This document shows, piece by piece, positions 4,806-50,530 of a stretch of DNA of 54,843 nucleotides. The position numbers and the translations under genes were made by a program. The first letter of the stretch is position 1. The number at the start of each line of letters is the position of its first letter. Origin of the DNA: Phycisphaerae bacterium. GTDB taxonomy: Bacteria; Planctomycetota; Phycisphaerae; UBA1845. Location of the stretch: positions 1-54,843 of the forward strand of contig JAJDDQ010000036.1 of NCBI GenBank assembly GCA_029260215.1, written 5' to 3'. The notes beneath the pieces were generated by a model. It had not been told where the DNA came from, made no database searches, and was given only the letters and a program-made list of their open reading frames with translations.

Positions 4806-4808
4806 CGC

Positions 4809-5840: not shown

Positions 5841-5886
5841 CCCCCACTAATAACTTGAGGAAACTGAAGCGATTCACAATTAGAGA

Positions 5887-7894: not shown

Positions 7895-7910
7895 ACAGAA
7901 CGGGAGACAG

Positions 7911-10223
7911 GTGATCGGATTCACATCACTCAATCTATTGGCTGCCTTCGTTTGGCCGACGCTGTTTTGGGGCGGGGCTGCGGCGGTCAGTGCGCCCATA
8001 CTGATCCACCTGTTGGCCCGGCGGCGGTTCAAACGCATCCGCTGGGCGGCGATTCAGTTTCTCATCGATGCCGAACGCCGCAATCGCCGGCGTATTCGCA
8101 TGGAGGATGTCATCCTGCTCCTCTTGCGGTGTCTCGCGCTTCTCTTGATCGCGATGCTCATCGCCAGGCCTTTCTTCGCGCCGAAGGGGTTGGCGGCGCT
8201 GCTCGGCGGCTCGGAACGCACGGAGCGCATCATCATTCTCGACGATTCATACAGCATGGCCTACAGCGGCGGAGCGGACTCCGCATTCGACCAGGCTAAG
8301 CGCGGCGTGCGTTCGTTGATCGAGATTTTCCGCGAGCAGTCGCCGCGCGATTCGATCACGCTGCTGCGCGCGTCGACGGTTGGTACGCCGTCGGCTGCCG
8401 GCGTCGTGCTGGATACGCGCCAAACCGAAGAATTATTCACCAGCATTGAAGGCATGACCGTCTCGCAGCAAGCCCTGGCACCGCGCGATTTGTTCGATTC
8501 GGTGCGAACGCTTCTGGACGAACGCACCGAGTCCATCGCGGTGGCTGTCTATTTGTTCAGCGATTTTCAGCGCAAAGATTGGGTTACAAACTCGACGGAC
8601 GCGCGCGAAGGGGCAGTCAGCCCCGTGGCGATTCTGTCGAACTGGAGCGACGACCAGCGCTCGCTCAAGCTCATTCTTGTGGACGTCGGATTCGACGACG
8701 CTTGCAATACCGCCGTTGCCCGCCTTGCGTCGAAACGCGGCAGCTTCGTCGCGGACGTTCCCGAATACGTTGAGGCTGAGCTTGTCCATTACTGCGATCA
8801 GCCGGCCACCTCGCTTCGCCTGGAAGTGACGGCGGGTGCATCGCCGCAGTCGCTCGCGACCGTCGATCGTGTGCAGCCCAACAGCACGCTTTCCGTGCCG
8901 CTTTCGGTTCGCTTCGCCCGACCCGGCTGGCAGTGGGTCACCGCCGCTCTGCCGGAGGACAACCTGCCGCTCGACAACGAACGAAACCTCGCCATCGAAA
9001 CGGTGGATGCGATGCGCGTTCTGATCGTCAACGGTGAGCCGTCGTCGGACGCTTACCGTGACGAAGTGGGTTTGCTTGCGACCGCGTTGCGACCCCCCGG
9101 TGAGGTGTTCAGCGGCAATGCTCCGGACGTAATCGACGAAACCGAATTCGAGGAAGTCGATCTCAGCCAATACGATGTCGTGCTAATTGCCAATGTGTAC
9201 CACGTCGGCGAGCGCGTCGCGGACGCGCTTTCCACTTACGTTGCGGGAGGCGGCGGTGTCGCATTCCTGCTCGGCGATCAGGTGGACCCCGACGCTTACA
9301 ACACCGTCTTGTTCGATGAAGGGCGAGGCCTGCTGCCCGCGCAACTCAGCGAGCGTTTCGTCTCGCCGGCGGGTGCGCGTATTCAGATCGACGATCGCCT
9401 GCATCCTATGGTGCGTGTGTTGGCCGGCGACGATAACCCGTTCGCAGCCAACATCACATTCGATCAGTATTTCGTGGTAGCACCGACGTCGTTTTCGGGC
9501 ATAGCATCTTCCGATGCGCAACCGGGGGCGCCCGCGACGGACGAGTCCGAATCTGACGCGATTTTCGTCGGAGCGGCTCGAACCCTGGCACACTACTCAG
9601 GGGGCGAAGGGCATCCCGCGGTCGTCGAGCGAACCTATGGCCAGGGTCGCGTGCTCATGTTCACCTCGACCTGCGATCAGGAATGGAACGACTGGGCCAA
9701 GGATCCAAGCTACGTCGTGTCCATGCTGGAATTGGCCCGTTATCTCGGGAGCGGGGCGGGCGTCTCGACGGATCGTCTGGTCGGCGCGCCAATTGAGATC
9801 GAGATCGATCCCGAAAAATATGCTTCCGACGTGCGCGTGCGTACGCCGCGCTACCCGGCTGAACAGGAAGTCCCGCTGACCGCACGCGCGGAGGAGAATC
9901 GCCCCGGTTTCCGGGTACGCTGGAACCAGACCGAGGTCGCGGGCGTCTACCAGTTCGTGCTCACACGCCACAACGGCGAAGAGGAAATTCGGACAGTGGC
10001 CGTCAACCTCGACCCAGCCGAGAGCGATCTGCGACCAGCCGTCGAAACCGAATTGCGACAGTCGCTGACCGAAATGGATTTCGCCTACATCGACAATCTC
10101 GACACGCTTGGCGAGGTCGGCGGCGATGCCCGTCGCGAATACTGGAAGACCGTTTTGATCGCAGTTTTCATCCTGCTGATGGGCGAACAATTCCTCGGAT
10201 GGTGGTTTGGGAGGCGCGCGTGA
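7911..10223 (+). CDS. BatA-like membrane protein with VWA and glutamine-amidotransferase-like domains
   Basis: A 770-residue protein starting at GTG 7911 behind GGGAGA. Residues ~1-85 form the BatA/Bat N-terminal double-membrane-segment domain, with the typical HLLARRRFKRIRWAAIQFL loop between the helices. A VWA domain follows (ILDDSYSM gives the DxSxS metal site near 109). The middle has an amidotransferase-like Rossmann segment beginning MRVLIVNGEPSSDAYRDE. The C-terminus ends in a last membrane helix (TVLIAVFILLMGEQFLGWWF). The large domain is expected to be periplasmic. The stop overlaps the next ATG by one base (TGATG). Confidence 0.88.
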   Translation: MIGFTSLNLLAAFVWPTLFWGGAAAVSAPILIHLLARRRFKRIRWAAIQFLIDAERRNRRRIRMEDVILLLLRCLALLLIAMLIARPFFAPKGLAALLGGSERTERIIILDDSYSMAYSGGADSAFDQAKRGVRSLIEIFREQSPRDSITLLRASTVGTPSAAGVVLDTRQTEELFTSIEGMTVSQQALAPRDLFDSVRTLLDERTESIAVAVYLFSDFQRKDWVTNSTDAREGAVSPVAILSNWSDDQRSLKLILVDVGFDDACNTAVARLASKRGSFVADVPEYVEAELVHYCDQPATSLRLEVTAGASPQSLATVDRVQPNSTLSVPLSVRFARPGWQWVTAALPEDNLPLDNERNLAIETVDAMRVLIVNGEPSSDAYRDEVGLLATALRPPGEVFSGNAPDVIDETEFEEVDLSQYDVVLIANVYHVGERVADALSTYVAGGGGVAFLLGDQVDPDAYNTVLFDEGRGLLPAQLSERFVSPAGARIQIDDRLHPMVRVLAGDDNPFAANITFDQYFVVAPTSFSGIASSDAQPGAPATDESESDAIFVGAARTLAHYSGGEGHPAVVERTYGQGRVLMFTSTCDQEWNDWAKDPSYVVSMLELARYLGSGAGVSTDRLVGAPIEIEIDPEKYASDVRVRTPRYPAEQEVPLTARAEENRPGFRVRWNQTEVAGVYQFVLTRHNGEEEIRTVAVNLDPAESDLRPAVETELRQSLTEMDFAYIDNLDTLGEVGGDARREYWKTVLIAVFILLMGEQFLGWWFGRRA

Positions 10224-12682
10224 TGACGGCGACGCACCAACTCATCGCCCAGATCAACCGCGTGGTCGAGGAGCGGCGTTTCGAGTTCGCGGCTTTGCCG
10301 ACGGGCTGGTCCGCTATTTTCGCGATCGCCGGGCTTGTTGCGGTCTGTTGGATCATCTTCGCGTTCTACCGCACGGAAGGCCGGCGCGGTGCGTCTTCAA
10401 TCCAGCGCATGTTCCTCGCAGTATTGCGGTGTCTGGTCATCCTGACTTTGGCGGGCATCCTCGTTCAGCCGGTATTGGCGACCTATCTGCACCGGTGGAT
10501 CGACTCCTACTGCATCGTGCTCGTGGACGATTCATCGAGCATGGACCTGCGCGATCGATACCGCGAACCGGCGGACGCAGCCCGCGTTGAATCGGTCATG
10601 CCTTCCGAAACAGTCCTGCCGCTACGCCGGACCGACGTCGTCGAACAGTTGCTGACGCGGAATGATTACGCTCTGCTTGAAGGGCTTCGCGAACACAATC
10701 GCGTCAAAGTCTTCACATTCAGCGACGCCCCGGAACTCATCGGCACACTGTCAGCCGCAAGAGAACAGATCGAGCAAGCCGGTCAGGAGGATCAAAACTC
10801 CGAAACGTCGCTGCTGACCACCGACGCCGCATTGCGTACGTCGTTCGACGCTCAAGGGTCCGCCACCAATATCGCCCGGGCGGTTCGCAGCGCTATCGAA
10901 TCTCTTTCGGGGGCGCCGCTCGCGGGCGTTGTGGTATTCAGCGACGGCGGATTCAATCAGGGCGACCCGCTTGAGGTCGTCGCCCGCTTCGTGGGGGAGC
11001 AGGGTGTCCCGCTGCACGTGGTCGGAATCGGCGACCCAGCCGAGCCGCGCAACGTGCGCATCACCGAAATCGCAGCCCCCGAAAACGCCTTCGAAAGCGA
11101 TCCGTTCTCCATCACCGTTCACATCGCGACACAAGGGATGGCCGGCGACTCTCTTGTGGTCGGCTTGTACGACGGCGATTCAACATCGCCGCTTGAAACG
11201 CGCACGGTAAGCGTCAGCCCGACGGACGAGGTCGCACCGATCGTCTTCACACAAACGCGCGAAACACTAGGCCGATCCGTCTACCGTGTGGAGATTCCCG
11301 TACGCGAAGACGAGAGTGTTTCCGACGACAATACCAAGACCTGCACCGTCAACGTCATCGACGACAAGATGCGTGTGCTGCTGATATCCGGCAGCCCAAG
11401 TTGGGAATACCGCTACCTGTCGCGCCTGCTCGTGCGCGACGAAACATTCGATGTAAGCTGCTGGTTGCAGTCGGCGGACACCAACGCGGTCCGCGACGGC
11501 AACACCATCATCGACGCTCTGCCCGCGACGCCGGCTGACCTGTTCAAATACGACGCTGTCGTCATGCTCGACCCCGACCCGGCTGAGTTCGGCCCCGGTT
11601 GGGCCAAGCTGCTGGCCGACTTTACCACCGAACACGCCGGCGGCGTTCTTTACGCAGCCGCCAGACCTTACGCATCGACATTCCTGCGCGACCCAGCCGT
11701 CGCCCGCATCGTGCAACTGCTCCCGGTCACCCCCGACCCGGAAGCGGACCTGATACTCAATCGCGTAGGCCACTACCAGACGCGCGATTGGCCTATCGAA
11801 ATCGAAAAAACCGCCATTGGGCACCCCATCCTCAAACGCCCGGGCGCTTCGTCCGGTGCGGGGTTCTGGCGCGATCTGCCCGGTGTCTATTGGCACTACC
11901 CCGTCCTGCGCGAGAAGCCGGTGGCCACTGTGCTCCTGCGTCACGGCAGTCCGCAGATGCGCAACGCTTACGGCCAACACGTGCTGATGGCCACCCAATT
12001 CGCCGGCTCGGGACGAACCGCGTATCTGGGCATCGACAGTACCTGGCGATGGCGACGACAGGGCGATGCATTGTTCAACACCTTCTGGGTGAACACGCTT
12101 CGATACCTCGTCGAGGGCAAACTGCTCGGTGCGAAACAACGGGCCAGCCTCTTCACCGACGGAGACACGTTCCAGATTGGCGAAGCTGTTATGGTCACAG
12201 CCCGTCTGTTCGATGCACGATTCGAGCCGTTGGAGATCGACTCGGTGACAGCCTCTTTCGGAGCATCCGCGCGCACCACGGATTTCAAACTCAACCGCCT
12301 GTCGGACAGGCCCGGATGGTATGAGGGACGCATCACCCCCAACGCGACCGGCCACTATCGCATCGCTTTGACGCTGCACGCCGGCGGGGCGGAACCGATC
12401 CACACCACACACGAAATCCAGGTGGTCAGACCCAATATCGAAGTAGTCAATCCACGCATGAACCGCGCAGCCTTGCAGATGCTGGCGGAGCGGTCGCCCG
12501 GCGGGCGATACTATGATATCGACGAGATCGATTCGCTAACGGATTCCATCGCGGATCACCATGAACTGACCACCGTTCGATCTCGCCCGGAGCAGCTTTG
12601 GGACCGCTGGTGGACCCTCGCGGCGCTCATCGGATTGCTAAGCCTCGAATGGGCTGTAAGAAAGTGGGTGCGTTTGTTGTGA
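10223..12682 (+). CDS. Membrane-anchored VWA / glutamine-amidotransferase-like protein
   Basis: An 819-residue paralogue-like partner of the preceding BatA protein. ATG 10223 is used because it overlaps the upstream stop as TGATG; an in-frame ATG at 10199 lies inside the previous gene. Two N-terminal membrane helices (~28-50 and ~65-85) lead to a VWA domain with VDDSSSMD (DxSxS) and FSDGGFNQGD. Then follows a beta-sandwich region, an amidotransferase-like domain starting MRVLLISGSPSWEYRYLSRL, and a C-terminal membrane helix before KWVRLL. No amidotransferase Cys-His-Glu triad was identified, so this domain is probably non-catalytic. The gene ends in a GTGA overlap with the next. Confidence 0.85.
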   Translation: MTATHQLIAQINRVVEERRFEFAALPTGWSAIFAIAGLVAVCWIIFAFYRTEGRRGASSIQRMFLAVLRCLVILTLAGILVQPVLATYLHRWIDSYCIVLVDDSSSMDLRDRYREPADAARVESVMPSETVLPLRRTDVVEQLLTRNDYALLEGLREHNRVKVFTFSDAPELIGTLSAAREQIEQAGQEDQNSETSLLTTDAALRTSFDAQGSATNIARAVRSAIESLSGAPLAGVVVFSDGGFNQGDPLEVVARFVGEQGVPLHVVGIGDPAEPRNVRITEIAAPENAFESDPFSITVHIATQGMAGDSLVVGLYDGDSTSPLETRTVSVSPTDEVAPIVFTQTRETLGRSVYRVEIPVREDESVSDDNTKTCTVNVIDDKMRVLLISGSPSWEYRYLSRLLVRDETFDVSCWLQSADTNAVRDGNTIIDALPATPADLFKYDAVVMLDPDPAEFGPGWAKLLADFTTEHAGGVLYAAARPYASTFLRDPAVARIVQLLPVTPDPEADLILNRVGHYQTRDWPIEIEKTAIGHPILKRPGASSGAGFWRDLPGVYWHYPVLREKPVATVLLRHGSPQMRNAYGQHVLMATQFAGSGRTAYLGIDSTWRWRRQGDALFNTFWVNTLRYLVEGKLLGAKQRASLFTDGDTFQIGEAVMVTARLFDARFEPLEIDSVTASFGASARTTDFKLNRLSDRPGWYEGRITPNATGHYRIALTLHAGGAEPIHTTHEIQVVRPNIEVVNPRMNRAALQMLAERSPGGRYYDIDEIDSLTDSIADHHELTTVRSRPEQLWDRWWTLAALIGLLSLEWAVRKWVRLL

Positions 12683-14811
12683 CCACGGGTGACGCCAATC
12701 TCTCACTGACCACGCTTGAGCCGGGGGCGATCGAGCGAAAAGTGCTCGGCCCGCTCACGCGTCTTCGCGCGCGTCTGCGACTTTACGCGCTGACTGTGGG
12801 TATCGCGAGCCTGCTCGTTTACCTGTTGTGCGCATCAATCGTGCAGTTCGCGCTGGACTATTCGTTCCGCCTGCCGCTCGACATGCGTGCAGCTTTGCTG
12901 GCTGTCGTCGTGGGCGGAGCGGGTTGGCTGATCTACCGGCGCATCATCAAACCCCTGCGCGTGTCTTTCGGGCACAACGAGGTGGCTGCCATCGTCGAAC
13001 GTCGCGACCCCGGCCTGCGTTCCCTGCTCGTGTCAGCCGTTCAGTTCGCTCAGGGACAGGTCGGTGCAGAGGCCAGCAATTCCCGCACGTTCGTCGAGCG
13101 TGTGATCGCCGAAGCATGCGCCCGCGCGGACCGCATCCGATTCACGGAAGCCCTGGACCACGGCTTGGCGCGCAGCCGCATGTTTGTCATCGTCGTGGTC
13201 TTCGCGGTTTGGGTCGGCGCGTTCGGGTTAAGTCCGGAGGAGATGGGCATATGGTTTGATCGCAACGTGCTCCTCGGTCACGCGGAGTGGAAACAGCGCA
13301 CGCATCTGATTGTCGAACTGCCGCACGGCGTGTTGACCGGCGCACGCGGTGACGATATCGAAATACGCGCCCGCGCCGAAGGCGATGTGCCGCGCGCGGT
13401 CACCGTGGAATTCGAACTCGCAACCGGTAGAAGCGGTCGCGAAACCATGATCGCGGTCGGCGAACGCGGATTCCGCCATACCTTCCTGCGTGCTGACGAC
13501 GATTTCCGTTTTCGACTCAGCGGCGGTGACGATCAAACCGAGTGGTTCACCGCGCAACTCGCGGATCGACCTGTGGTCGAGGACATCACGCTGAATGTAA
13601 CCCCGCCCGAATATTCCGGCGCACTGCCCTTCACCGCACCGCAAGGCCAATTGGCAATCGAGGTGCTGCGCGGCAGCACGGTGCGCGTCGATGCCCGCTT
13701 CAACAAACCCGTTATCGTCGCGACCTTGATGAGCGGGCAACAACCCGTTGCCCCAGCCGCCGGCGTGGACAACGAATGGTCCGTTTCGATCGCACCGGAG
13801 CAAACAAAAAACTACCACTTCGCCCTCGTCGACGAGCTTGACCTGAGCAACAAGCGACCGGTCCACGTGTCCGTGCGCGTCGTCGAAGACGCAGCCCCGC
13901 GCGTGCGCATGAAAATCAACGGCGTGAGTGATATCATCACCGCCCAGGCGCTTCTGCCGATCGAAATGTCATTCTCCGATTCGTTCGGGTTGGCCGACAC
14001 GGAGCTGACTTATCAGATCGCCCGCGAGGGCTACGAACTCGAGAAAATCCAATTGGACGATTTCGTCCCCGGCATCACCAACTTCGACACGAAACTGCTC
14101 TGGGGTGCGTCGTCACTGCCGCTCGTGCCCGGCGATCATCTGACTCTGTTCGCCCGCGCGACGGACTTCAACGACATCACCGGGCCGGGCGAGTCCAAAT
14201 CCGGAGCCGTCACCCTGCGCATCGTCACGCGCGAGGAAATGCTGGCAGAGCTTGCCCGCCGCGAGCAGGAATATCGACAGGAATTTGAACGCATCATCGA
14301 ACAGCAGGAAGACCTCCGCCGAAACCTGCTGACCCTGATCCGCGAGATGGAAACGGTGCGGGCCGAGGATCGCCTCACCGCCCGCGTCGCACCGCTCGAA
14401 CGTCGCCAAAGACAGATCGGCGGGCAGGTCAATCTCCTGCGGCAGCAGTTCGAGCAAATTGTGGCGGAATTCCGCGTGAACGGCATGGATACGTCCAATA
14501 TCCAGGATCGCCTCGAAGACGGCGTGGTCAAGCCGATGTCCACGCTGGCCCGGCGAAGTCTGGTTTCCGCCGCCGACCGCCTTCGGGCCATCGATCGCAG
14601 CGACGCAGCCGATTCCGCCGAACTGGCAGACGCCGGTCAGCAGATTGTCTTGGACGACATGCGCCGGATATTGGCCAACATGCTAAAATGGGAAGGGTTC
14701 CAGGAGGCGGTCACCATGCTTCGCGACGTGCTCCGCCTTCAGCAGGAATTGCACGGGGAAACGCAGGACGAGATCGAGCGTCGAGCAGCCGATATCCTCG
14801 GCGGCGGCTGA
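12679..14811 (+). CDS. DUF4175-like membrane protein with coiled coil
   Basis: About 710 residues if translation starts at GTG 12679, which overlaps the upstream stop as GTGA; ATG 12649 is an alternative. There are two N-terminal membrane segments (ALTVGIASLLVYLLCASIVQ and ALLAVVVGGAGWLIY), a conserved-looking EVAAIVERRDPGLRSLLVSA stretch, and a third membrane helix near 170. Large extracytoplasmic beta-rich domains follow, then from ~515 a long coiled coil (REQEYRQEFERIIEQQEDLR) with a Gln/Glu-rich end. The layout resembles DUF4175 proteins, which accompany BatA/VWA operons; the assignment is by layout and a short motif only. Confidence 0.7.
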   Translation: MTTGDANLSLTTLEPGAIERKVLGPLTRLRARLRLYALTVGIASLLVYLLCASIVQFALDYSFRLPLDMRAALLAVVVGGAGWLIYRRIIKPLRVSFGHNEVAAIVERRDPGLRSLLVSAVQFAQGQVGAEASNSRTFVERVIAEACARADRIRFTEALDHGLARSRMFVIVVVFAVWVGAFGLSPEEMGIWFDRNVLLGHAEWKQRTHLIVELPHGVLTGARGDDIEIRARAEGDVPRAVTVEFELATGRSGRETMIAVGERGFRHTFLRADDDFRFRLSGGDDQTEWFTAQLADRPVVEDITLNVTPPEYSGALPFTAPQGQLAIEVLRGSTVRVDARFNKPVIVATLMSGQQPVAPAAGVDNEWSVSIAPEQTKNYHFALVDELDLSNKRPVHVSVRVVEDAAPRVRMKINGVSDIITAQALLPIEMSFSDSFGLADTELTYQIAREGYELEKIQLDDFVPGITNFDTKLLWGASSLPLVPGDHLTLFARATDFNDITGPGESKSGAVTLRIVTREEMLAELARREQEYRQEFERIIEQQEDLRRNLLTLIREMETVRAEDRLTARVAPLERRQRQIGGQVNLLRQQFEQIVAEFRVNGMDTSNIQDRLEDGVVKPMSTLARRSLVSAADRLRAIDRSDAADSAELADAGQQIVLDDMRRILANMLKWEGFQEAVTMLRDVLRLQQELHGETQDEIERRAADILGGG

Positions 14812-40047: not shown

Positions 40048-40668
40048 ATGGCAACCGGGAAACAACAAAGTCGTGGGGAGGACGCTCGCAGCGCTCGGCG
40101 CGAGCGCATCGCTCGTCGCAAGGGGCGAGGAGCAGGCGTCGGGGGCAAGCCCGTTCGCAAGCGCCCCGTCATGCGCGCGATTCTCATGTTCTCGGCCGTC
40201 ATGGGCGGATACTACACGTTCGATTACTTCTACCTGCAAGACTCGGGTATGCTTGACTGGTATCTCTCGGGTATTGCGAGCGTCACGTCCGGTATCATCC
40301 AGATGTTTGGCGAAGAAGCGCAAAATATCGGAACCACAATTCGATCGCCCGGCTTCTCGGTGCGCATCGTGCGGGGCTGCGATGCTCTGGACCCGACGGC
40401 GGCTTTCGTTGCTGCGGTGTTGGCCTCTCCCGTCGGTTGGTCGTTGAAACTCTACGGCACGATCGTTGGCAGCGTGGCGCTGCTGAGTATCAACCTGTTC
40501 CGCATTGTCAGCCTGTTCTTTATCGGCACGCATTTTCGCGAAGTTTTCGACATGATGCATTACGAAATATGGCAGGCGGTGTTCATCGTGCTCGCGATCG
40601 TATTCTGGGCGATCTGGGTGCAGTGGGCCTCGCGACGCAGATCGCGGGCGATTCATGCGACGGCCTAA
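40048..40668 (+). CDS. xrtH: Exosortase, XrtH-like (IPTxxxWG-CTERM-specific)
   Basis: A 206-residue polytopic membrane cysteine protease/transpeptidase of the exosortase/archaeosortase family, smaller than EpsH-type exosortases. A 40-residue basic N-terminus precedes several membrane helices. The family's three catalytic residues are visible: Cys111 (RGCDALDPTAAFVAAVL), Arg152 (INLFRIVSLF) and His171 (MMHYEIWQAVF). The next gene encodes the membrane protein that accompanies XrtH, and two proteins at 42427-47377 carry IPTxxxWG-type signals. The enzyme should cut these signals at the membrane and release or attach the proteins. Confidence 0.9.
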   Translation: MATGKQQSRGEDARSARRERIARRKGRGAGVGGKPVRKRPVMRAILMFSAVMGGYYTFDYFYLQDSGMLDWYLSGIASVTSGIIQMFGEEAQNIGTTIRSPGFSVRIVRGCDALDPTAAFVAAVLASPVGWSLKLYGTIVGSVALLSINLFRIVSLFFIGTHFREVFDMMHYEIWQAVFIVLAIVFWAIWVQWASRRRSRAIHATA

Positions 40669-41281
40669 GCTCGCAACAGAATTTCTTCTCCGTTTTCTTG
40701 TCGTGTTCGTCACGGTGCTTATTCCGTGGCATGGCTTGTATGGCGCGTTTGGCGGTTACTTTCGGGCGTGCGGAAATACGTTTTTCGGTTCCCTGTTCGA
40801 CGACGCGGTGGTCGAATTCAACGAGATCGAAAACGGTGTGGACGGGCGCGACATCGAGCTGTGGCTTGAAAACACGCGCACGCCCTTCGCCGCCGATACG
40901 CAAGGCAGTTCGCGTTGGCTGGGCTACTTGCCTACGGCGTTCTCGTTGTCGCTGATTCTTGCCACCCCGCTGCCGTGGCGACGCTTGGGTTTGGCTTTGC
41001 TCATTTGGTTGCCGCTTATTCATATTTACGTTGGTTTTCGTACTCTTGTTTTGCTTTGGACCGTGTTCAGCGTGGAAGGCCCGTTGGCACTGTTCTCGCC
41101 GAGTCCGGCTGTCTCCAGGGTGCTGGAGTTTCTGAACTGGATGCTGGTGGTGTCTTTCGCAGGAAGTTTCGTGCTTCCGGTATTCATCTGGTTTGCCTGC
41201 TGCTTCAGGCGTTCCAACCTGACGTTGCTGGGTAAACGCATCGGTGTCGATTTCAATTCAGCCGTTCCAGCCGAAGCGTAG
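40655..41281 (+). CDS. Exosortase-H-associated membrane protein
   Basis: A 208-residue protein with about four membrane helices (FVVFVTVLIPWHGLYGAF; GYLPTAFSLSLILATPLPW; LALLIWLPLIHIYVGFRTLV; VVSFAGSFVLPVFIWFACC). Between helices 1 and 2 lies an ~70-residue extracytoplasmic loop. The start overlaps xrtH by 14 nt, so the two are translationally coupled. It corresponds in size, topology and position to the membrane protein that accompanies XrtH in other genomes. Its biochemical role is unknown. Confidence 0.78.
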   Translation: MRRPKLATEFLLRFLVVFVTVLIPWHGLYGAFGGYFRACGNTFFGSLFDDAVVEFNEIENGVDGRDIELWLENTRTPFAADTQGSSRWLGYLPTAFSLSLILATPLPWRRLGLALLIWLPLIHIYVGFRTLVLLWTVFSVEGPLALFSPSPAVSRVLEFLNWMLVVSFAGSFVLPVFIWFACCFRRSNLTLLGKRIGVDFNSAVPAEA

Positions 41282-41329
41282 GGCGAGAGGGCGACAGCTT
41301 GGGCGGCGGTGGCTCCGGATTCGCGAAGG

Positions 41330-42262
41330 TTATGGGGCGTGCTGTTCGCTGAACACTTCTTCGAGCGTCCGTGCCAACCTGACGCCGGCCTGCTTGAGCC
41401 GTAGCTCGATGACACGGTTAGCATACTCGCGATAAGTACGTGTTTCCGTTGGGGAAAGAATTTCCTCGTTCGCGATGGTCCGATTCTCGGACGGGTGCTT
41501 GTAGGCGTAACCGGCTGCTTGGCGGGAAGAGGCGGTGGCCCATGCGGCGGGATCCATTGTGGCGAGCCATTCGACGCGGTCGGCATCTGAGATGCTCGCG
41601 TAGAGGTGGGTGGTGTATTGCTGCCAATCTCCAAAACCAAGTTCTTCCATGCGGCGTTCGATTAGGCCATAGTCCCACATGGCGTGCAGGTTGCCCTTCT
41701 GTGTTCGATCTCCCGAGTTGGTAAAGGTGACGTCGATGTCGTTACCACCCCTGTCTGCTCTGAGGCCTGCGTGCAGGGGCTGGTGGACATCGCCGACGAA
41801 ATGCGCCATGAACTTGAGCGACAGCAGCCTTTTCTTATCGGATGCGTCGGCGTCCGCCAGGACTTTGCGGTAGAACGCAACGGCTTCGACCACGCAATCC
41901 CGGTTCGGACAGGGGAGATTTTCCGGGCAGTTGTTTTTTGGTCTGCAATCTCGTTCTCGTGAGAACGATTCCGCTCCCTCGGGCAGGTTTACATAATGCA
42001 AGGTGCGTGCCCAACGGTACGTCGAGCGGTCGGGATGCGTTGATTTCTTGATGTCGTCGGCCCAGACGGTGGACTCGGACAGGCTGTGGTATTTGTCGTT
42101 CGCGTCGGTGCGGAGCAGGCGGAGCAGGTTGCGTCGCGCCGCTGGTTTCATCTCTTGATAGGCGATCTCGCCGACGATGCGGTGTCCGTCGTATCCCCAA
42201 CCCAGGGCTTCCGTGGAAAACGCCAAGAGCGCGAGAATCGCCAAGTGTCTGCATGTCGTCAT
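41330..42262 (-). CDS. Secreted S1/P1-type nuclease
   Basis: A 310-residue exported zinc-dependent nuclease. After the signal peptide the chain begins WGYDGHRIVGEIA; in S1/P1 enzymes the mature N-terminal Trp itself binds zinc, so cleavage is expected after Gly21. Other metal-site segments are TVWADDIK, LHYVN, KFMAHFVGDVHQPLHAG and GNLHAMWD, the usual three-zinc cluster of phospholipase C/P1 nucleases. It would degrade single-stranded DNA or RNA outside the cell. It converges on the xrtH pair with 48 bp between and carries no C-terminal sorting signal. Confidence 0.92.
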   Translation of the reverse strand: MTTCRHLAILALLAFSTEALGWGYDGHRIVGEIAYQEMKPAARRNLLRLLRTDANDKYHSLSESTVWADDIKKSTHPDRSTYRWARTLHYVNLPEGAESFSRERDCRPKNNCPENLPCPNRDCVVEAVAFYRKVLADADASDKKRLLSLKFMAHFVGDVHQPLHAGLRADRGGNDIDVTFTNSGDRTQKGNLHAMWDYGLIERRMEELGFGDWQQYTTHLYASISDADRVEWLATMDPAAWATASSRQAAGYAYKHPSENRTIANEEILSPTETRTYREYANRVIELRLKQAGVRLARTLEEVFSEQHAP

Positions 42263-42426
42263 TTTGTTTTTCCTCTCTGGTGGAACGGGCGATCACGACT
42301 ACATGGAAATCAGCAGTTCGTGGTGTCCCCAGTGGGGCGATACCTCTTCTCTTAACCTTCAGCGAGGATTGAATCAAGGATCGATTGTCTGGAAATCGTC
42401 TGACACGCTGGTGATACGGAGAAACG

Positions 42427-45400
42427 TCAAGCGTAAACATCAGACCGGCGACGGCGTCCGAAGACGATTGAGCCAGCTGAGGCCAGCATCAACGACATAA
42501 TCACCATCCCCCAGTCAGACGTCGTGGGAATCGTCTCGCACAGGCATGTTCCGTCCACCGGATCGCATACGCCTACGGCGCAGCCGGCATCGAAAGAATC
42601 ACAAACCACGCCGTCGCAGGCGGTGGTGATTCGAATGTTATCGACCTGCCAACCAAGCGTCCCGCTGTCGAATGTGTCGCTCTGAAACTTGAATACAATC
42701 GTAATATTCCGGCCTTCGAATTGCCTGAGATCAATCGACGCATTCACCCATCCGCCGGATGAGCCGCTCAATCGCATCATCCGAACATTGTTGACCGAGA
42801 CGTCGGCGAAATCGAAACCCAATTCGGTATCCAGTGCGTAGCAGAAGTCCAAAGTTGCGTTCCCCAGTGGCAGTTCAATCGGTGGTGATTTCAATCCGCC
42901 GGCATTGCCGTCGCCGTAAATGCAAGCGCCTGCGTTCCCGGCGTAGGCCCAGCTCGAACCGTCGCAGGCGGGTGTCTGGCTGCACGCCCCGGTAACGTTG
43001 AATATCCCTGAGGTCGTCCATCCTGCAGGCAGGCCGTTTTCAAAATCGACATCCAGCAGAACACCCAGCCCGGGTGTCTCGCACTCATCCAGGACGCCGT
43101 TCGCATCAATATCAGTGGACGCTCCGCTGAAAACATCGCAAATGTCCTGGATCGAGTTGCCATTGCAGTCAAAGTGCACCTCGCACTCGTCAGGCCTTCC
43201 GTTCGCGTTGCAGTCCTGGCTGACGGCGTTGATGTCACATTCATCCGGTACGAAGTTGCAGTTGCAATCCATGCTTGTGCCGTTCGGCCAAATGTCGAGA
43301 TGGTCGTAGACTCCGTTGCCGTTGCAATCAACCTGGCATTCATCGGGGACACCATTCAAATCGACGTCCGCACTGAACGCCGAATCAATATCGCAACTGT
43401 CCTGTATTTGGTTCTGATTGCAGTCCACGGCGAACCCGTCAATGAAATCAAAACCGGTCGCAAAGTTAAGCCCGTGATCGTTGCCGCCGATGTGCGTCTT
43501 GCGGAAGTTTCCGGTGCAGACGTTGTACTCGAACATCCGAGCGTCGGTAAGGTGCGAAGCAGCCACGCCCGCAGGAACCGTTTGCTCGCTGTCGATCGGC
43601 CCTGTGCGCGTAACATACACATGCCCGTTGGGGCCGACTCGGATACCCCAGGGGCTGTCCTGCGTGATTCTGGTATCGGTTCCCACTTTCGCCCACTTCC
43701 CGCGCGAACGACCGGTCATACCGTCAAACTCCAGCACCTCGTCCGTACCGAAGCTGGCCACCAGTAAATTGCCGTCAGGTTTGAATGCCAATCCCCGCGG
43801 TTGATCGAGGCCGCCATTGTCCGCCGCAGAAACGAGAACACGCAGAAACGCGCCCGTCGAACCGTCGTACACCATCACTTCATTCGTGCTGCTCGTTACA
43901 TACAGGAGGCCATTGGGACCGAACGTTATACCGAAAGGCCCCGTCAATCCGCCGGCCCCATTTGCAATGAATGCCCCCAAAGGCATTCCGCTTGTTCCAT
44001 CGAAAGCCAGAACCTTGTTGTCGCCTTGATCGGCCACAAGTAGCACCCCAGCGTCCGTCATGAGAAGTCCTGCCGGTGCAATCACACCTGCACCGGCCGG
44101 GACAAAATCGCGTTGAAAAACGCCAGCCGCGTCGAATTCCATGACGCTCGCCCCGCCGAGGTTGCTCGCCAGTATTCGTGCCGTCGGCCCGCTTCCCACG
44201 ATGATCAAATCCTGCGTGCCGCCGACCGTGGCACCGCTTGAGGAAGACATCAAAACGCCAACGTTCGCATGAAACTCGCGCAGAATCGACGAGGCCAGAC
44301 CGCTGCCCACCCACAGGCCATGCGCTCCGCCAAGCTCGTCAAAGTCCGTCATGCCATCGCCGTCACAATCCTGACAGGAATCCAGAATGGCATTGCGGTC
44401 CTTGTCCAACGTCATGTCCGCCTGAATCTCGGTATAGTCGGACACTTCATCGTTGTTGCAATCCGCTTCGCACTCGTCTGGAATATAATTTCCATAGGCA
44501 TCGAGGCTGAACAGCGTGTCGATGTCCTGGGAATCGGGAACGTCGTTGCCGTTGCAGTCTGTTTCGCAAGTGTCGGGTACACCGTTGGAATTCGTGTCCA
44601 GAAATCCTCCCTCGCTGATGTCCATCGGATCCAGCACGCCGTTGCCATTGCAGTCTTCGCATTCGTCGGGAACCGAATTCCCGTTTATGTCGAGGCTCCC
44701 TCCGCCTGCGATCTCTGACAGATCATCCAAACCATTCATATTGCAATCCGCGGGGATGCACGACTGCGATGCCGTGATGTGCGCGTCCATCGAGGTTTGG
44801 ATGAGACGGTGAAAATACTGGTCCGCATTGGCACTCATACCGCTCCATGTCTGACTACAGTATGACATGATCGAGCCGCGTTGAGGCGTCGTGAGGGGAT
44901 CATCACATGTATCCACGCCGATCCCATGCGTGTGCGGGGCACCGCATGTATGCCCCAATTCGTGGGCCGTCACTCTGACATCCCAGGTATACGGGTCCGG
45001 TCTGGTTGGATCGGGCAGGATACCCGCTGCATAACCCACTATGCCATATCCAATGGAATTGCTGCACAGCGAGCCGAGATACGCCTGGCCGCCGAACGGA
45101 TAATCCCGCCGGCCGGAAAAGAGTTGCGCAGAGTCACGCTGTACTGCCGTCATATTGAATGTCCAGAATGGACGAAGCTCGCGCAGCGGATCGGGGCCGT
45201 TGAACAGATCGTCCGGCTGGTCCCAGATGCGCACAAACACGACATCGATCCACATGTCAACATCGCGCATGAACGTCGCACTCACCTCACCATACACGGT
45301 GACTACGTAGTCCATCGCTTCCGTCGCATCATCAAAAAGCTGAAATAGCTCGTAGTCCGTCTCGATGGCCAACTCCATATGTTTGAGAAACACAGTAGAG

Positions 45401-46107
45401 CCACCCCCGCTGCCCGCGGCGATCGTGGAAATCTCCATCTTGGGCTGGTCGACCCACGACCCGCGAAACAGCATCCTGTCGCCATCGATGCCGCAAAACG
45501 GAACACCTGCCGGTCCGCCCTGCGACACGTCGCCGGTCGCAAAGACCGAAACCTGATCGGCGGCCAGCAACGCACCGGTTGAGTCCTTCGACGAAATCCG
45601 GTAGCGCGGCAGGCCGCGTCCCAAATCGACAACCCCCGTCGAGCGCCCGTCGCCCAGGGCAAGAAAGGCATGCGAGCCCGGCTTCCCCTTTACTCGGCCG
45701 TGGAAAAACGAAATCCGATTCCAGTCATAATCAAAGGACCGATCTGCTCCGCCTTTGTTTCCGATGACGATTTGCGTGTCAGCGCCGACAACTTGGAATG
45801 GCTTGAGTTCGAGACTGACCCGACGATCGGGTGACAACGGGAATTGTTCGACAACAAACGACTCGCTCCGAGCGCGAACAGCCGCCAAATACGCACGGTC
45901 CAGTTTCAGGATCGTCGCCCTGGTTTCGGCTCTCGTAACAGTGAACAGGCGAACCGGTTGCGTCGTCGGCGACTCAGGTGCCTCTCGTTGACCAGCACGC
46001 GCCGCAACCGAGAACGTATCCAATGCCCAAGCAGCCACCCCGATTCCGACAGCGACCAGAAAAATATTCGCAGACGTGCGGAAGCAATTGAACGAATGGA
46101 CGTGCAT
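42427..46107 (-). CDS. Large metzincin protease with Ca-binding repeats, NHL propeller and IPTxxxWG-CTERM
   Basis: A 1226-residue exported protein. ATG 46107 is preferred over 46191 since it directly gives a signal-like helix (NIFLVAVGIGVAAWALDTF) behind a G-rich site. The catalytic domain has HELGHTCGAPH (His382, Glu383, His386, His392) and a Met-turn SIMSYC, an M12B/reprolysin-like pattern. Many DCNGNGVPDxCE Ca-binding units follow, then an NHL propeller (PFGITFGPNGLLYVTSSTNE), more DCNxN units, and a jelly-roll-like domain with IRITTACDG. The end is IPTTSDWG (~1193-1200), a membrane helix and RRRR, a sorting signal for the nearby XrtH. Confidence 0.87.
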   Translation of the reverse strand: MHVHSFNCFRTSANIFLVAVGIGVAAWALDTFSVAARAGQREAPESPTTQPVRLFTVTRAETRATILKLDRAYLAAVRARSESFVVEQFPLSPDRRVSLELKPFQVVGADTQIVIGNKGGADRSFDYDWNRISFFHGRVKGKPGSHAFLALGDGRSTGVVDLGRGLPRYRISSKDSTGALLAADQVSVFATGDVSQGGPAGVPFCGIDGDRMLFRGSWVDQPKMEISTIAAGSGGGSTVFLKHMELAIETDYELFQLFDDATEAMDYVVTVYGEVSATFMRDVDMWIDVVFVRIWDQPDDLFNGPDPLRELRPFWTFNMTAVQRDSAQLFSGRRDYPFGGQAYLGSLCSNSIGYGIVGYAAGILPDPTRPDPYTWDVRVTAHELGHTCGAPHTHGIGVDTCDDPLTTPQRGSIMSYCSQTWSGMSANADQYFHRLIQTSMDAHITASQSCIPADCNMNGLDDLSEIAGGGSLDINGNSVPDECEDCNGNGVLDPMDISEGGFLDTNSNGVPDTCETDCNGNDVPDSQDIDTLFSLDAYGNYIPDECEADCNNDEVSDYTEIQADMTLDKDRNAILDSCQDCDGDGMTDFDELGGAHGLWVGSGLASSILREFHANVGVLMSSSSGATVGGTQDLIIVGSGPTARILASNLGGASVMEFDAAGVFQRDFVPAGAGVIAPAGLLMTDAGVLLVADQGDNKVLAFDGTSGMPLGAFIANGAGGLTGPFGITFGPNGLLYVTSSTNEVMVYDGSTGAFLRVLVSAADNGGLDQPRGLAFKPDGNLLVASFGTDEVLEFDGMTGRSRGKWAKVGTDTRITQDSPWGIRVGPNGHVYVTRTGPIDSEQTVPAGVAASHLTDARMFEYNVCTGNFRKTHIGGNDHGLNFATGFDFIDGFAVDCNQNQIQDSCDIDSAFSADVDLNGVPDECQVDCNGNGVYDHLDIWPNGTSMDCNCNFVPDECDINAVSQDCNANGRPDECEVHFDCNGNSIQDICDVFSGASTDIDANGVLDECETPGLGVLLDVDFENGLPAGWTTSGIFNVTGACSQTPACDGSSWAYAGNAGACIYGDGNAGGLKSPPIELPLGNATLDFCYALDTELGFDFADVSVNNVRMMRLSGSSGGWVNASIDLRQFEGRNITIVFKFQSDTFDSGTLGWQVDNIRITTACDGVVCDSFDAGCAVGVCDPVDGTCLCETIPTTSDWGMVIMSLMLASAGSIVFGRRRRSDVYA

Positions 46108-46336
46108 GTGCCCGTATCCCCCGAAAAACCCCGAATTCAGCCATCGCCACCGAAACGTTGCCTGCCGTTCCGATTCCACGGACACCCACAATCAATCTAG
46201 AGAGTCCGTCTGTCAAATTCAAGGGGAAGGATTTCCCAACAAGGGTCCAAGACCGATTAGGCGGAGCTGGAAATCTCGTGTTGGAACGGCTGGTACGGGC
46301 GAAGAAGCGTGTAACGCCTTGGCCGCTTTCACACGA

Positions 46337-47377
46337 TCAAGTCTTGACAGTTCGGTTCGTTCCCGAGCGAGCGATGATCAATGTGCCCGTGGTCAAGACC
46401 ATCAGCGTCATCATGATCATTCCCCATTGGGATGTCGTCGGAACGACCGGTTGAGCGAATTGGAATTTCTGCACGCGGAAGTTGCTTGAATCGGTGACAT
46501 AAACGACCCCGTTGGCACCGGGGCGTATTCCGTAGGGCAGGTTGAATTGGCCTTCACCGCTGCCAAAGGAACCCCATCCCGCCAAGAAGTCGCCCGTGCC
46601 GGTAAACTTCTGCATGCGCGGGAGGTTGCGGTCGTTTACGTACACATTGCCGTCGTCATCGGTCGCGAGGCCACGCGGGAAATTGAACTGGCCGTCGCCG
46701 ACCCCAGCCGACCCCCACGAGGTGATGAACACGCCGTCGTTTGTGAACTTTTGGATGCGCGGGCTGCTGTCGCCGACGAACACATTATCGTCACCATCGA
46801 CAGCTACGCCGTTTGTGCCGTTGAACTGCCCGTCTCCCGTTCCGGTTGTTCCCCACGCCATGACGAAAGTGCCGTCGGTGGTAAACTTCTGAACGCGGTT
46901 TTGATTGCGATCCGCGACGAAGACGTTGCCGTTGCTGTCCACCGCGAGGCCATGATTGTGCTGGAACTGGCCGTCGCCTGCACCGAACGACCCCCACATG
47001 GTGATGAACGTTCCGTCACTTGTAAATTTCTGGACGCGGTTGTTGCCGGTCTCGGACACGTACAAGTTCCCCAACGGGCCAATGCCTATCCCGTGGGGAT
47101 GAAGGAATTGACCGGGTCCGCTGCCGGGGGTTCCCCACTTCATGAGAAAGACGCCCTCACTGGTGAACTTCTGAATGCGGTTGTTGCCGGTGTCCGCCAC
47201 ATACACGTTGCCGTCGGCGTCGACCTCGATTCCGTGCGACCCGCCGAATTGGCCATCGCCGCTTCCATTCGATCCCCATTCCATCACGAACGCCGGTGCG
47301 TTGGTTCCCGCCCAAACACTGCTGGGAACCATTGCCAGCGAGATCGCCAGAACGCATGCATGTGTCGAGAAATTCAT
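46337..47377 (-). CDS. NHL-repeat beta-propeller protein with IPTxxxWG-type CTERM
   Basis: A 346-residue exported protein; AGGAGG lies 6 nt before ATG 47377. After signal peptide MNFSTHACVLAISLAMVPSS there are six NHL repeats of ~47 residues (GDGQFGGSHGIEVDADGNVY, YVADTGNNRIQKFTSEG and so on), a complete six-bladed propeller. The tail is VPTTSQWG (312-319), a hydrophobic helix (MIMMTLMVLTTGTLIIA) and basic residues: the tripartite exosortase signal, with Val in place of Ile. It lies 5 kb from xrtH and next to the other CTERM protein, suggesting a dedicated substrate. A ligand cannot be predicted. Confidence 0.9.
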   Translation of the reverse strand: MNFSTHACVLAISLAMVPSSVWAGTNAPAFVMEWGSNGSGDGQFGGSHGIEVDADGNVYVADTGNNRIQKFTSEGVFLMKWGTPGSGPGQFLHPHGIGIGPLGNLYVSETGNNRVQKFTSDGTFITMWGSFGAGDGQFQHNHGLAVDSNGNVFVADRNQNRVQKFTTDGTFVMAWGTTGTGDGQFNGTNGVAVDGDDNVFVGDSSPRIQKFTNDGVFITSWGSAGVGDGQFNFPRGLATDDDGNVYVNDRNLPRMQKFTGTGDFLAGWGSFGSGEGQFNLPYGIRPGANGVVYVTDSSNFRVQKFQFAQPVVPTTSQWGMIMMTLMVLTTGTLIIARSGTNRTVKT

Positions 47378-47611
47378 CCATCACCTCCTGAATACAAAGT
47401 CGGTCTTTTGCGAAACGACTTGGCTATGAGTTTACTCGCCCGCGAACACCAATTGCAAGGTGACGAAATCAGCCCAATCAGGTATCCGTTAGTTCTCCTA
47501 AAGCAGCAGGGGGCTTGGCGAACGAAAATCTCAGACGGCGGGATAGGAAATCGTCTTGCCGGTGGCTAGAATCGGGGAGTGAGCACGACCACTCAGCGAG
47601 GACAATCTCAG

Positions 47612-48610
47612 ATGCGGATTTTTTCGGCCATGCGTTGCGTACGACCAGCTTTACTCGTTGCGTTTGCGCTACTTTTTTCGGTCCGCGCCGATGCGCACGT
47701 ATTCATCTTCGATTTTTACCGGGCGGGCGCTGCCCCGCAACACGAAGGCCAAGGCTGGATCGCCGAAGTTTATCTCAACATCCCGGACGAATCAGCCATT
47801 CATCTACTGGCTGCGGAACAGTACGTGGAGAAACGCGTTCCCGATTTCACGTTTAGAACGCCCTATATCGATTTTCCCGCCGGTCCGGTCGCCTTCCGTT
47901 TCGACAACGAATTCGAAACGATGGGCGATTTCCTTGACGATTACATCTACGACGTTTCCGATCCTTCAAAGTTGGACGAACCGTTTGGAAACTTCCTGAT
48001 CAAGTTCAGGGGTTACCTGCGCGTTGAGCTTAACGACGATCATACCCTGACGCCGGGTTTGTCCGTGTGGGTTGAATTCGGCACGATTGGTTTTGACGGC
48101 TTTCGCACGGCCATCGAGGAACAAACGATTTATCGGCTTCCGATCGTCAACGAGAACTTCCCGTTTTTTCACGAGAACTCCATCGTTCTCGGGCTTGGCC
48201 TGTTTCCGATCGAAATCACGACTTTCAATCGGTACGATCCCAAGGGAGTCATGCGTCACGCGGGCATCGAGTTTTACAGTTGGCACGGCGGGGCGCTCAA
48301 CTGGCCCGCAGGTGAGAATCTCGTGCATCCGGTTTTCGGGGCTGCAACCATCGTGCCGCCGCGTGTCATCTATCAGTTTGAGGACATTCGGCCGCTGGTC
48401 AAAGGAGATTTCGACGCCGACTTCGATATCGATGTCCTCGATTTCCAATGGTTGCAAACCTGCTTTACAGGCCCCGGTGGCGATGATGTGTTTCTCGACG
48501 AAGGTTGTAACGCTTTGGATTTCGATGACGACAATGACGTTGATGTTGATGACTTTGCGGCGTTTGCAAAAGTTGTCGGCGGTCCGGGGGTCGAGCCGCA
48601 GGTTGAGTAA
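47612..48610 (+). CDS. Secreted protein with dockerin-like C-terminus
   Basis: A 332-residue exported protein. ATG 47612 gives a signal peptide (VRPALLVAFALLFSVRADA); an upstream GTG at 47579 in the same frame has no ribosome site. The body is beta-rich with a Pro/Asp/Phe-rich middle and no recognised fold. The last ~60 residues are dockerin-like, with Ca-binding loops DFDADFDIDVLDF and DFDDDNDVDVDDF separated by a linker. It is followed after 51 bp by the dockerin-like cytochrome gene, so the two may be one transcript. The function is unknown. Confidence 0.72.
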   Translation: MRIFSAMRCVRPALLVAFALLFSVRADAHVFIFDFYRAGAAPQHEGQGWIAEVYLNIPDESAIHLLAAEQYVEKRVPDFTFRTPYIDFPAGPVAFRFDNEFETMGDFLDDYIYDVSDPSKLDEPFGNFLIKFRGYLRVELNDDHTLTPGLSVWVEFGTIGFDGFRTAIEEQTIYRLPIVNENFPFFHENSIVLGLGLFPIEITTFNRYDPKGVMRHAGIEFYSWHGGALNWPAGENLVHPVFGAATIVPPRVIYQFEDIRPLVKGDFDADFDIDVLDFQWLQTCFTGPGGDDVFLDEGCNALDFDDDNDVDVDDFAAFAKVVGGPGVEPQVE

Positions 48611-48661: not shown

Positions 48662-50530
48662 ATGAAGAACCGATCGCTCATTCTGTTCGCATTGGCGACG
48701 GGCGGATTGGCTGCTTTGGCTGGCTCAGCCGCGCGCACCGGCGGCGCTCCGTCCATTCTCACAACACTGGAAGACTTCTTTCTTCCAGGGTCGCAGCCGT
48801 CGGGCGACGTGGTGTACGATTCGTTCGTCACCAGCAACAACTGCCGCGTTTGTCACACACAGGACGCTGACGGCGACGAATCACGCATTTACTCAAGCTG
48901 GCAGGGCAGCGTGATGGCCCAAGCTGGACGCGATCCGTTGTTTTACGCCTGTCTCGCCGTGGCGAATCAGGACGCAGCGTTCGCCGGCGACATGTGCATT
49001 CGGTGTCACATGGCTGGCGGTTGGATTTCGGGACGGTCCGAGCCTGCCGACGGTTCGTCTCTGACGCAAGCCGATCGTGACGGTGTGAGTTGCAGCGTCT
49101 GCCATCGAATGGTCGATCCCGTTCTTGAGCCGGGCGTCAGCCCCCCGATCGATGAGAGCATTCTGGTTGCCATCAATCCGCTGCCGGTCAATCCTGGCGG
49201 AGGGAACCTCGTGCTTGATCCCGAGGACCGCCGGCGGGGCCCCTACAGCGATCCCGCGCCGCCCGGACACCTCTGGCTTGCATCGCAATTCATGCGTTCC
49301 GCAACCCTGTGTGCCACGTGTCACGATGTCAGTAACCCCGCCTACATGCGTCAGGCCGACGGTACCTATCAACTTACCGAACTTAACGAGCCTCATCCCA
49401 CCGGCGACAAGTACGACATGGTTCCGATCGAGCGCACATACAGCGAATGGCTTATGAGCGATTTCGCAAAGTTCGGCGTTGATCTGGGCGGGCTTTTCGG
49501 CGGGAATATCAAAGGCGGCGTGGTTTCCACCTGCCAGGACTGCCACATGCCCAAGTTCTCGGGTCGCGGTTGCATTCGTACCGATGCACCGGTTCGCGAC
49601 GATCTCGCTGCACACGATTTTTCGGGTGGAAACACCGTCGTCCAGGACATGGTTCTCAACCTCTATCCTGACGAAAACGTCGTGGCTCAGAATCTCGCGG
49701 ACGGAAAACAGCGCTCGATCGAGATGCTTCAGCGAGCCTGCGATCTTGAAGTCGAACAGTTTGGGTATTACCTGAACGTGCGTATCATCAATCAGACCGG
49801 GCACAAGCTGCCGTCGGGCTACCCCGAGGGCCGGCGCATATGGATCAACGTGCAGCAGCGCGACGCGCGCGGCGATCTCATTCTCGAACTTGGCTCTTAC
49901 AACGCGTTGACTGCGGACCTGACCACGGAAGACACCAAGGTCTACGAAGCCCATTACGGGATCGATGAAGCCGTGTCGCGCGCAACCGGTATTCCGGTGG
50001 ACGAGCCTTTTCACTTCGTGCTCAACAACGTCGTCCTCAAGGACAATCGCATCCCCCCACGCGGTTTTACGAACGAAGCCTTCGCCGCGATACAAGCCTC
50101 TCCTGTGCGTGCCGTTTACGCCGACGGCCAATACTGGGACGACACACGATTTCGTCTGGCACCGGGGGCGGTCAGCGCCACGGCCACGATTCAATATCAG
50201 ACGATAAGCAAGGAGTATGTGGAGTTCCTGCGCGACGAGAATCATACCAATGACGCGGGTGAAATCCTCTACGATCAATGGATGCTTACAGGCCGATCCG
50301 CACCGATTGCGATGGCTGGATCGTTCGTGCAACTCTTGCCATTCGCCGACGGTGACGGCAACGCCGATGGCGCGGTCGATGATTTCGACTTCGCCCTGTT
50401 CGCCGATTGCGTCACCGGCCCGGATGCCGTTGCTGTCCCAACCGGTTGCACTCCCTTCGATCTTGACGGCGACACGGACATTGATTTTGCTGATTTCGCT
50501 GCCCTGCAATACCTCATTGCTCCATACTGA
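48662..50530 (+). CDS. Pentahaem cytochrome c with dockerin-like C-terminus
   Basis: A 622-residue exported protein with AAAGGGGA before the ATG. Five haem-binding CxxCH sites are present: 61-65, 112-116, 144-148, 217-221 and 291-295 (CRVCH, CIRCH, CSVCH, CATCH, CQDCH), all in the N-terminal half. Residues ~320-540 are beta-rich without cysteine pairs. The last ~60 residues hold two dockerin-like Ca loops (DGNADGAVDDFDF and DLDGDTDIDFADF). It is likely a periplasmic or surface electron carrier; the redox partner is unknown. A dockerin-like tail on a multihaem cytochrome is unusual. Confidence 0.85.
   Translation: MKNRSLILFALATGGLAALAGSAARTGGAPSILTTLEDFFLPGSQPSGDVVYDSFVTSNNCRVCHTQDADGDESRIYSSWQGSVMAQAGRDPLFYACLAVANQDAAFAGDMCIRCHMAGGWISGRSEPADGSSLTQADRDGVSCSVCHRMVDPVLEPGVSPPIDESILVAINPLPVNPGGGNLVLDPEDRRRGPYSDPAPPGHLWLASQFMRSATLCATCHDVSNPAYMRQADGTYQLTELNEPHPTGDKYDMVPIERTYSEWLMSDFAKFGVDLGGLFGGNIKGGVVSTCQDCHMPKFSGRGCIRTDAPVRDDLAAHDFSGGNTVVQDMVLNLYPDENVVAQNLADGKQRSIEMLQRACDLEVEQFGYYLNVRIINQTGHKLPSGYPEGRRIWINVQQRDARGDLILELGSYNALTADLTTEDTKVYEAHYGIDEAVSRATGIPVDEPFHFVLNNVVLKDNRIPPRGFTNEAFAAIQASPVRAVYADGQYWDDTRFRLAPGAVSATATIQYQTISKEYVEFLRDENHTNDAGEILYDQWMLTGRSAPIAMAGSFVQLLPFADGDGNADGAVDDFDFALFADCVTGPDAVAVPTGCTPFDLDGDTDIDFADFAALQYLIAPY

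Follow-up and report, generated by a model that had tools for sequence, protein, structure and literature searches.

The window analysed here is a 54,843-nucleotide stretch of DNA that forms the entire contig C30 of a draft genome of a Phycisphaerae bacterium (4.97 Mb, 97% complete; referred to as G000). Exosortases and archaeosortases are Cys-Arg-His enzymes that act on secreted proteins carrying a C-terminal helix, and the window encodes a small enzyme of this kind, exosortase H (XrtH), in an open reading frame (ORF) of 206 amino acids on the forward strand (xrtH, 40048..40668). The start of the next gene, which encodes a 208-amino-acid membrane protein on the same strand (40655..41281; hereafter the partner), overlaps the end of xrtH by 14 nucleotides. 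Farther downstream, on the reverse strand, lie the genes for a metzincin-type metalloprotease (42427..46191) and an NHL β-propeller protein of 346 amino acids (46337..47377), both of which end in a sorting tail of the IPT type. An earlier note on this DNA had singled out these four elements, and all of them are present at these positions.

Exosortase H and its IPT tails

The 206-amino-acid protein scores 90.3 bits against the exosortase H model TIGR04177, above the cut-off of 86; the runner-up model, XrtX, gives 65 bits, where its cut-off is 170. The active-site residues Cys111, Arg152 and His171 (codons 40378-40380, 40501-40503 and 40558-40560, forward strand) are conserved in all 45 XrtH-type sequences aligned, the window's included; every row of the full 47-row alignment has the Cys and the Arg, and 45 have the His, the exceptions being two long EpsH-type outgroups. 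The AlphaFold2 model of the protein has a predicted local distance difference test score (pLDDT) of 90.4. In a tree of the 45 XrtH-type proteins, which come from 21 genomes in a 198-genome sample of the class (matches below 50 bits were excluded), the window enzyme falls within a group of 33, here called XrtH proper, with support values of 93/82. By family model, conserved residues, structure model and tree, the protein is an exosortase H, as the earlier note had proposed, with the triad at the residue numbers it gave and no model of another exosortase type scoring better.

The metzincin ends in IPTTSDWG followed by a helix and RRRR (42436..42531, reverse strand), and the NHL protein in VPTTSQWG, a helix and Arg (46349..46444, reverse strand). 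Against the IPTL-CTERM model TIGR04174 (cut-off 20.5), the whole metzincin scores 22.4 bits, over the cut-off, and the whole NHL protein 19.6, just under it; in a scan of the genome with the same model, the two tails score 22.1 and 23.1 bits, respectively. That scan returned 30 matches at E ≤ 1, 16 of them above the cut-off, whereas 8 of 14 control genomes yielded matches at E ≤ 1 and none yielded one above the cut-off; the window tails are therefore not a chance resemblance. From 28 of the 30 matches we built a second model (the own-tail model), leaving out one match whose frame stops six residues into the motif (L011) and one with no motif (L029). This model gives 58.2 bits to the metzincin tail and 51.7 to the NHL tail, both being part of its input, and finds 36 places in G000 at E ≤ 0.1. 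We conclude that the genome holds about 30 IPT tails, so that the two recognised earlier have many counterparts, and that the metzincin and the NHL protein are likely XrtH substrates.

G000 encodes five exosortases, two long ones of the EpsH type and three small ones; its 34 PEP-CTERM matches at E ≤ 1 occur alongside the two EpsH-type enzymes. Only the window enzyme passes TIGR04177. The other two small exosortases, on contigs C60 and C86, score 59 and 64 bits and also miss the cut-offs of the other typed exosortase models in NCBIfam; in the tree they lie outside XrtH proper, in a set of 12 rows not resolved as a single clade. Given their presence in the same genome and these sub-threshold scores against TIGR04177, the C60 and C86 enzymes could be thought to process the IPT tails, but we regard this as highly improbable. 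Within the stretches retrieved around each enzyme gene (up to 10 kb on each side), tails at E ≤ 0.05 lie near the enzyme at 19 of 33 XrtH-proper loci and at none of the 12 other-type loci (Fisher P = 0.0004); the 19 include the window, one locus whose tail is 14 kb off and two with divergent tails (L163 and L166, E ~0.01). One genome with XrtH proper and no other small type (G142) has 12 tails, and of the two genomes that carry only the other XrtH-like types, one lacks tails and the other has a single weak tail. A second exosortase that would explain the tails better, which the earlier note had allowed for, is thus not apparent. The C60 and C86 enzymes (loci L138 and L137) each have a partner of 267 to 306 amino acids, and no sorting signal was recognised at their loci; within 6 kb, the sole flagged C-terminal helix, the enzyme's own aside, is that of a protein of about four helices located 4.2 kb from the C86 enzyme.

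The tail and XrtH proper also co-occur across genomes. In the 37 of the 198 sampled genomes that were searched with the own-tail model, tails at E ≤ 0.001 are present in 17 of the 19 genomes that encode XrtH proper and in 1 of 16 genomes of the same family or order that have no XrtH-type match (Fisher P = 6 × 10−7, a value that overstates the association because the genomes are related; G000, the source of the tail model, is itself one of the 19). The corresponding counts are 10/10 versus 1/5 within the family and 7/9 versus 0/11 outside it. With the public model TIGR04174, for which the best candidates of each genome (39 at most) were scored, tails occur in at least 15 of the 21 genomes in which an XrtH-type match reaches 50 bits and in at least 3 of the 177 others; this search gave none in G166, in which the own-tail model finds 28 (E ≤ 0.1).

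The membrane protein encoded beside xrtH

At 43 of the 45 loci, a first search found another gene for a membrane protein that overlaps the end of the exosortase gene or directly adjoins it, and the remaining two also have a partner, separate in L145 and fused in L146. All 33 XrtH-proper loci encode the first partner type, which is that of the window, and all 12 other loci encode a longer second type, with no exchange between the two. Because 32 first-type and 10 second-type sequences from these loci were used to build the partner models, the independent cases of linkage are L145, L146 and L164, the last of which was excluded from the models. In L146 (9272-11206, genome G052), a single open frame encodes a second-type exosortase (residues 159-308) followed by its partner (residues 313-600), and within the partner half the XrtH model matches again, more weakly (2.3 × 10−4); this natural fusion of the more distant type supports the pairing of enzyme and partner. 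The linkage is therefore constant in the loci sampled, and the partner protein of exosortase H that the earlier note had named proves to be a regular companion of the enzyme.

Several comparisons relate the partner to exosortases. When the 32 first-type partners were scanned against NCBIfam, the commonest match was TIGR04177 itself (7/32 at E ≤ 0.01, best 3.9 × 10−5); XrtY was matched by 3, XrtX by 1, heimosortase by 1 and NF041730 by 2. The hhalign comparison of the partner and XrtH-proper alignments gave a probability of 97.0% over 152 aligned columns and a score of 71, and the score against the other-type exosortases was 78. For the XrtH-proper pair, 60 full column shuffles reached at most 20.4, 60 shuffles in blocks of 10 columns at most 30.6, and reversed profiles 22. 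We also searched the 4,687 ORFs of the locus stretches with hidden Markov models (HMMs) at E ≤ 0.01. Apart from partners, the partner model matched 13 of the 33 XrtH proteins and 7 of the 12 other-type exosortases, and the lone match labelled as something else (L132) was that locus's own partner in a longer frame; the XrtH model matched 14 partners and no other ORF. Three partners that entered none of the models (L172, L173 and L174, chosen as the three best matches to NF041730) match the XrtH model with 16.2, 16.0 and 9.8 bits.

The AlphaFold2 model of the window partner has a pLDDT of 93.8 and shares with the XrtH model the order helix, helix, three strands, helix, 32-residue helix and C-terminal helix or helices, the 32-residue helix following the active-site helix in both. 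In the alignment, Trp88 of the partner stands opposite Cys111 of XrtH, and Arg129 opposite Arg152. Among the 32 partners, none has a Cys within one column of the aligned site (L151 has one two columns off), the Arg site is occupied by Arg in 24 and by Lys in 2, and a His is found near its aligned site in 6, the exact column being uncertain by about one residue between alignments. The window partner has neither the catalytic Cys nor the His. Since no partner has a Cys at the aligned site, we regard it as a pseudo-exosortase and not as an exosortase. Together, profile comparison, HMM searches and predicted topology show a partner of apparent exosortase ancestry that has lost the Cys and the His.

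An unrelated helper protein, resembling XrtH only through the composition common to membrane proteins, would fit the low identity of the profile alignments (about 13-14%) and the lack of any Pfam or NCBIfam match for the window partner. We consider this unlikely: shuffling in blocks, which preserves local hydropathy, yields at most 30.6 against the real score of 71, the remaining ORFs of the same loci match neither model, the partners match several exosortase families, and the core elements follow the same order in both predicted structures. Nor does it seem at all likely that the partner is itself catalytic, for example by delivering an acceptor through residues other than Cys and His. Trp25, Pro105 and Trp179 are invariant among the partners, and Asp66, Pro93, Arg110 and others are nearly so, which indicates strong constraint; yet the partners have no conserved Cys, and 7 of 32 contain no Cys whatever.

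A named family, NF041730 (exosortase H-associated membrane protein), also consists, to judge by its name, of membrane proteins linked with exosortase H; the name does not mention exosortase ancestry, and no mention of it turned up in the papers searched. The partners of L172, L173 and L174 match it with 29.7, 22.7 and 21.7 bits, one of them over positions 4-181 of 184, but all three remain under its cut-off of 35, and the window partner does not match it. Because the cut-off is not reached, we do not file the window partner in NF041730 and treat it only as a likely planctomycete counterpart, with L172, L173 and L174, which match both NF041730 and the XrtH model, linking the named family to it.

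A proposed two-subunit sorting enzyme

The explanation that we favor, and consider probable, is that XrtH and the product of the overlapping gene form a two-subunit membrane sorting enzyme with a dead, duplicated subunit and about 30 clients. XrtH would be the catalytic subunit, its Cys attacking secreted proteins at the C-terminal IPTxSxWG-helix-basic tail; it would remove the tail helix and then either release the protein or transfer it to a surface acceptor. From what is known of exosortases and archaeosortases, cleavage should take place near the IPT motif. The partner would be a duplicated exosortase that lost Cys and His and retained the fold and usually the Arg, and it probably positions the catalytic subunit, the substrate tail or the acceptor. 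We thus infer a physical complex, a cut site, an acceptor and a role for the partner as scaffold, specificity subunit or acceptor subunit. Some exosortase types have a fixed membrane neighbor. Among related systems, lipid anchoring of archaeosortase substrates in haloarchaea is reported (PMC7157517), and the S-layer protein of Methylomirabilis lanthanidiphila carries a predicted IPTL-CTERM domain (PMC8671808), which fits surface display.

A number of observations count against this explanation. Two genomes with XrtH proper have no detected tail (G077 and G125), and one genome has a strong tail (G148, C8:14539-14625, E = 6 × 10−12) and no XrtH-type match at E ≤ 10−6. The window partner itself is matched by no NCBIfam or Pfam model, and E-values from single-pair hhalign comparisons are uncalibrated. 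The two predicted structures differ in that XrtH has an additional N-terminal helix, of low confidence, and that the last helix of XrtH is split in the partner; their topologies were compared by secondary structure only, and a fold search of the Protein Data Bank with both models returned nothing at E ≤ 0.001 and no solved relative. The second partner type reaches an hhalign probability of 6.8% against its own exosortases and 0.4% against XrtH proper; its probability against the first partner type is 79%. Because its direct profile comparison is weak, exosortase ancestry of the second type is only a suggestion.

In a broader form, XrtH would be an obligate two-subunit enzyme in which the dead exosortase confers specificity or anchors the acceptor, and the same principle would recur in the other small types, with their longer partners (once fused to the enzyme) and sorting signals of their own. 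We put this forward tentatively, with slightly more doubt than confidence. That the constant partner is apparently a dead exosortase points to a heteromeric enzyme, which would explain why an exosortase expressed singly might fail in vitro. The natural fusion of the related type offers a starting point for testing the pairing.

XrtH, IPTL-CTERM and the XrtH-associated membrane protein are already named families. The system in the window agrees with exosortase H (TIGR04177) and IPTL-CTERM (TIGR04174, PF18203) in that the enzyme is over the cut-off, the tails are over or just under it, and the two co-occur. It differs in the fourth motif position, which is Leu in the family name and mostly Val here, and in its numbers, with at most 5 XrtH-proper copies per genome and 12 to 52 tail matches per genome of the family. 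The midcut-by-XrtH family (NF033207) is by name another group of XrtH substrates, but only the tail segment matches it, at 13.7 bits against a cut-off of 45, and the tails here are C-terminal. Exosortases of the PEP-CTERM/EpsH type belong to the same superfamily and differ in their tail and in the greater length of the enzyme. In Proteobacteria, for which the comparison was a search of plasmids, the sole match was an XrtM locus whose neighbor is unlike the partner. The papers searched include none that mentions exosortase H, or XrtH together with exosortase, and none on an exosortase and a pseudoenzyme; the ancestry of the partner may nevertheless have been noticed earlier. In a planctomycete review, the passages that mention exosortase belong to the reference list.

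Gene neighborhood and variation among the tails

The metzincin has a reprolysin domain (Pfam Reprolysin_5, 5 × 10−15) with the zinc motif HELGHTCGAPH, an NHL repeat match (4 × 10−7) and, near its C terminus, a possible jelly-roll domain with an InhA-like_MAM match below the cut-off. The NHL protein matches Pfam NHL at 5.8 × 10−38. Between the partner and the metzincin lies an S1/P1 nuclease gene (41330..42262, reverse strand; PF02265, 2.6 × 10−57), whose product lacks an IPT tail and which we take as a mere neighbor.

The earlier note had taken this 7-kb cluster to suggest a dedicated surface-display unit; in such a unit, XrtH would serve its neighbors, the metzincin and the NHL protein. With 34 tails in 4.97 Mb (the 36 own-tail places without two weak ones), the Poisson probability that two lie within 6.7 kb of a given xrtH is 0.004, a figure judged post hoc. 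Tailed genes beside xrtH are also common among relatives: 14 of 33 XrtH-proper loci have one immediately upstream, in the same orientation and no more than about 0.8 kb away, and in four genomes (G002, G038, G146 and G174) this gene carries the only tail found. The note's premise that exosortase targets are usually scattered therefore describes these bacteria poorly, and the four genomes represent minimal enzyme-substrate sets. The lone IPT-tailed protein of G038 (L161:10643-11545) has a caspase-like domain (PF00656, 2 × 10−14).

We nevertheless consider a dedicated unit very unlikely. The window xrtH has no tailed gene directly upstream, and its two tailed genes lie downstream on the opposite strand. 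Beside other xrtH genes, we found no counterparts of the metzincin, the NHL protein or the nuclease, except that G160 has a metzincin 7.6 kb away from its xrtH, and conserved synteny of any of the three with xrtH was rejected; because these neighbors are not conserved, there is no case for a dedicated display unit. About 30 other tails are present in the genome, yet only a single XrtH is over the cut-off, and tail pairs less than 8 kb apart occur at roughly the chance rate (three seen versus 1.8 expected; four if the weak match C33:292364 is counted). Since the neighbors lack counterparts at other loci, we think it best to count the metzincin and the NHL protein simply among the roughly 30 clients of the proposed two-subunit enzyme. 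Of the earlier interpretation, the XrtH identity, the partner and the IPT tails as marks of likely substrates stand, and the display unit and the scattering of targets are set aside.

The same applies to the suggestion that Thr at motif position 4, found in both window tails, marks a planctomycete variant of the enzyme-signal pair. Position 4 in the 28 tails of G000 is Val in 14, Ala in 5, Met in 4, Thr in 2, Ile in 2 and Leu in 1, the two Thr tails being those of the window. In 52 distinct tails from other loci, taken from the best-scoring loci of two tail searches (at most 5 from G000, the rest from relatives), it is Val in 33, Leu in 9, Thr in 5, Met in 4 and Ala in 1. Thr is thus a minority residue scattered among relatives, with Val the commonest, and we rejected it as a lineage marker.

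We also tried to match XrtH clades to tail classes, sorted by eye into those with a long 'AGTIVF' helix and those with a shorter 'GxxIxF' helix. Short-type tails are found on neighbors of the other four enzymes in the window clade, but the neighbors in the window have long-type tails, and short-type tails occur beside other clades as well, so that no clean rule emerges.

Directly upstream of two xrtH genes of the window clade, in genomes of one genus, lie genes for giant proteins, one of 3,539 amino acids (L127, G071, upstream ORF 2304-12923) and one of at least 3,147 (L163, G083, 2-9445). Their tails, IPVLSGRG and IPVMSNRG, each followed by a helix and basic residues, have Arg in place of the Trp of the signal. 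A pattern search for such tails in 51 genomes of the family found six places, these two and four elsewhere.

Three named relatives from one scan are Phycisphaerae metagenome-assembled genomes. Elsewhere in the window, a multiheme cytochrome-like protein (48662-50530) ends in a dockerin-like repeat below the cut-off, and the ending of the protein encoded at 47579-48610 resembles this repeat, as judged by eye.

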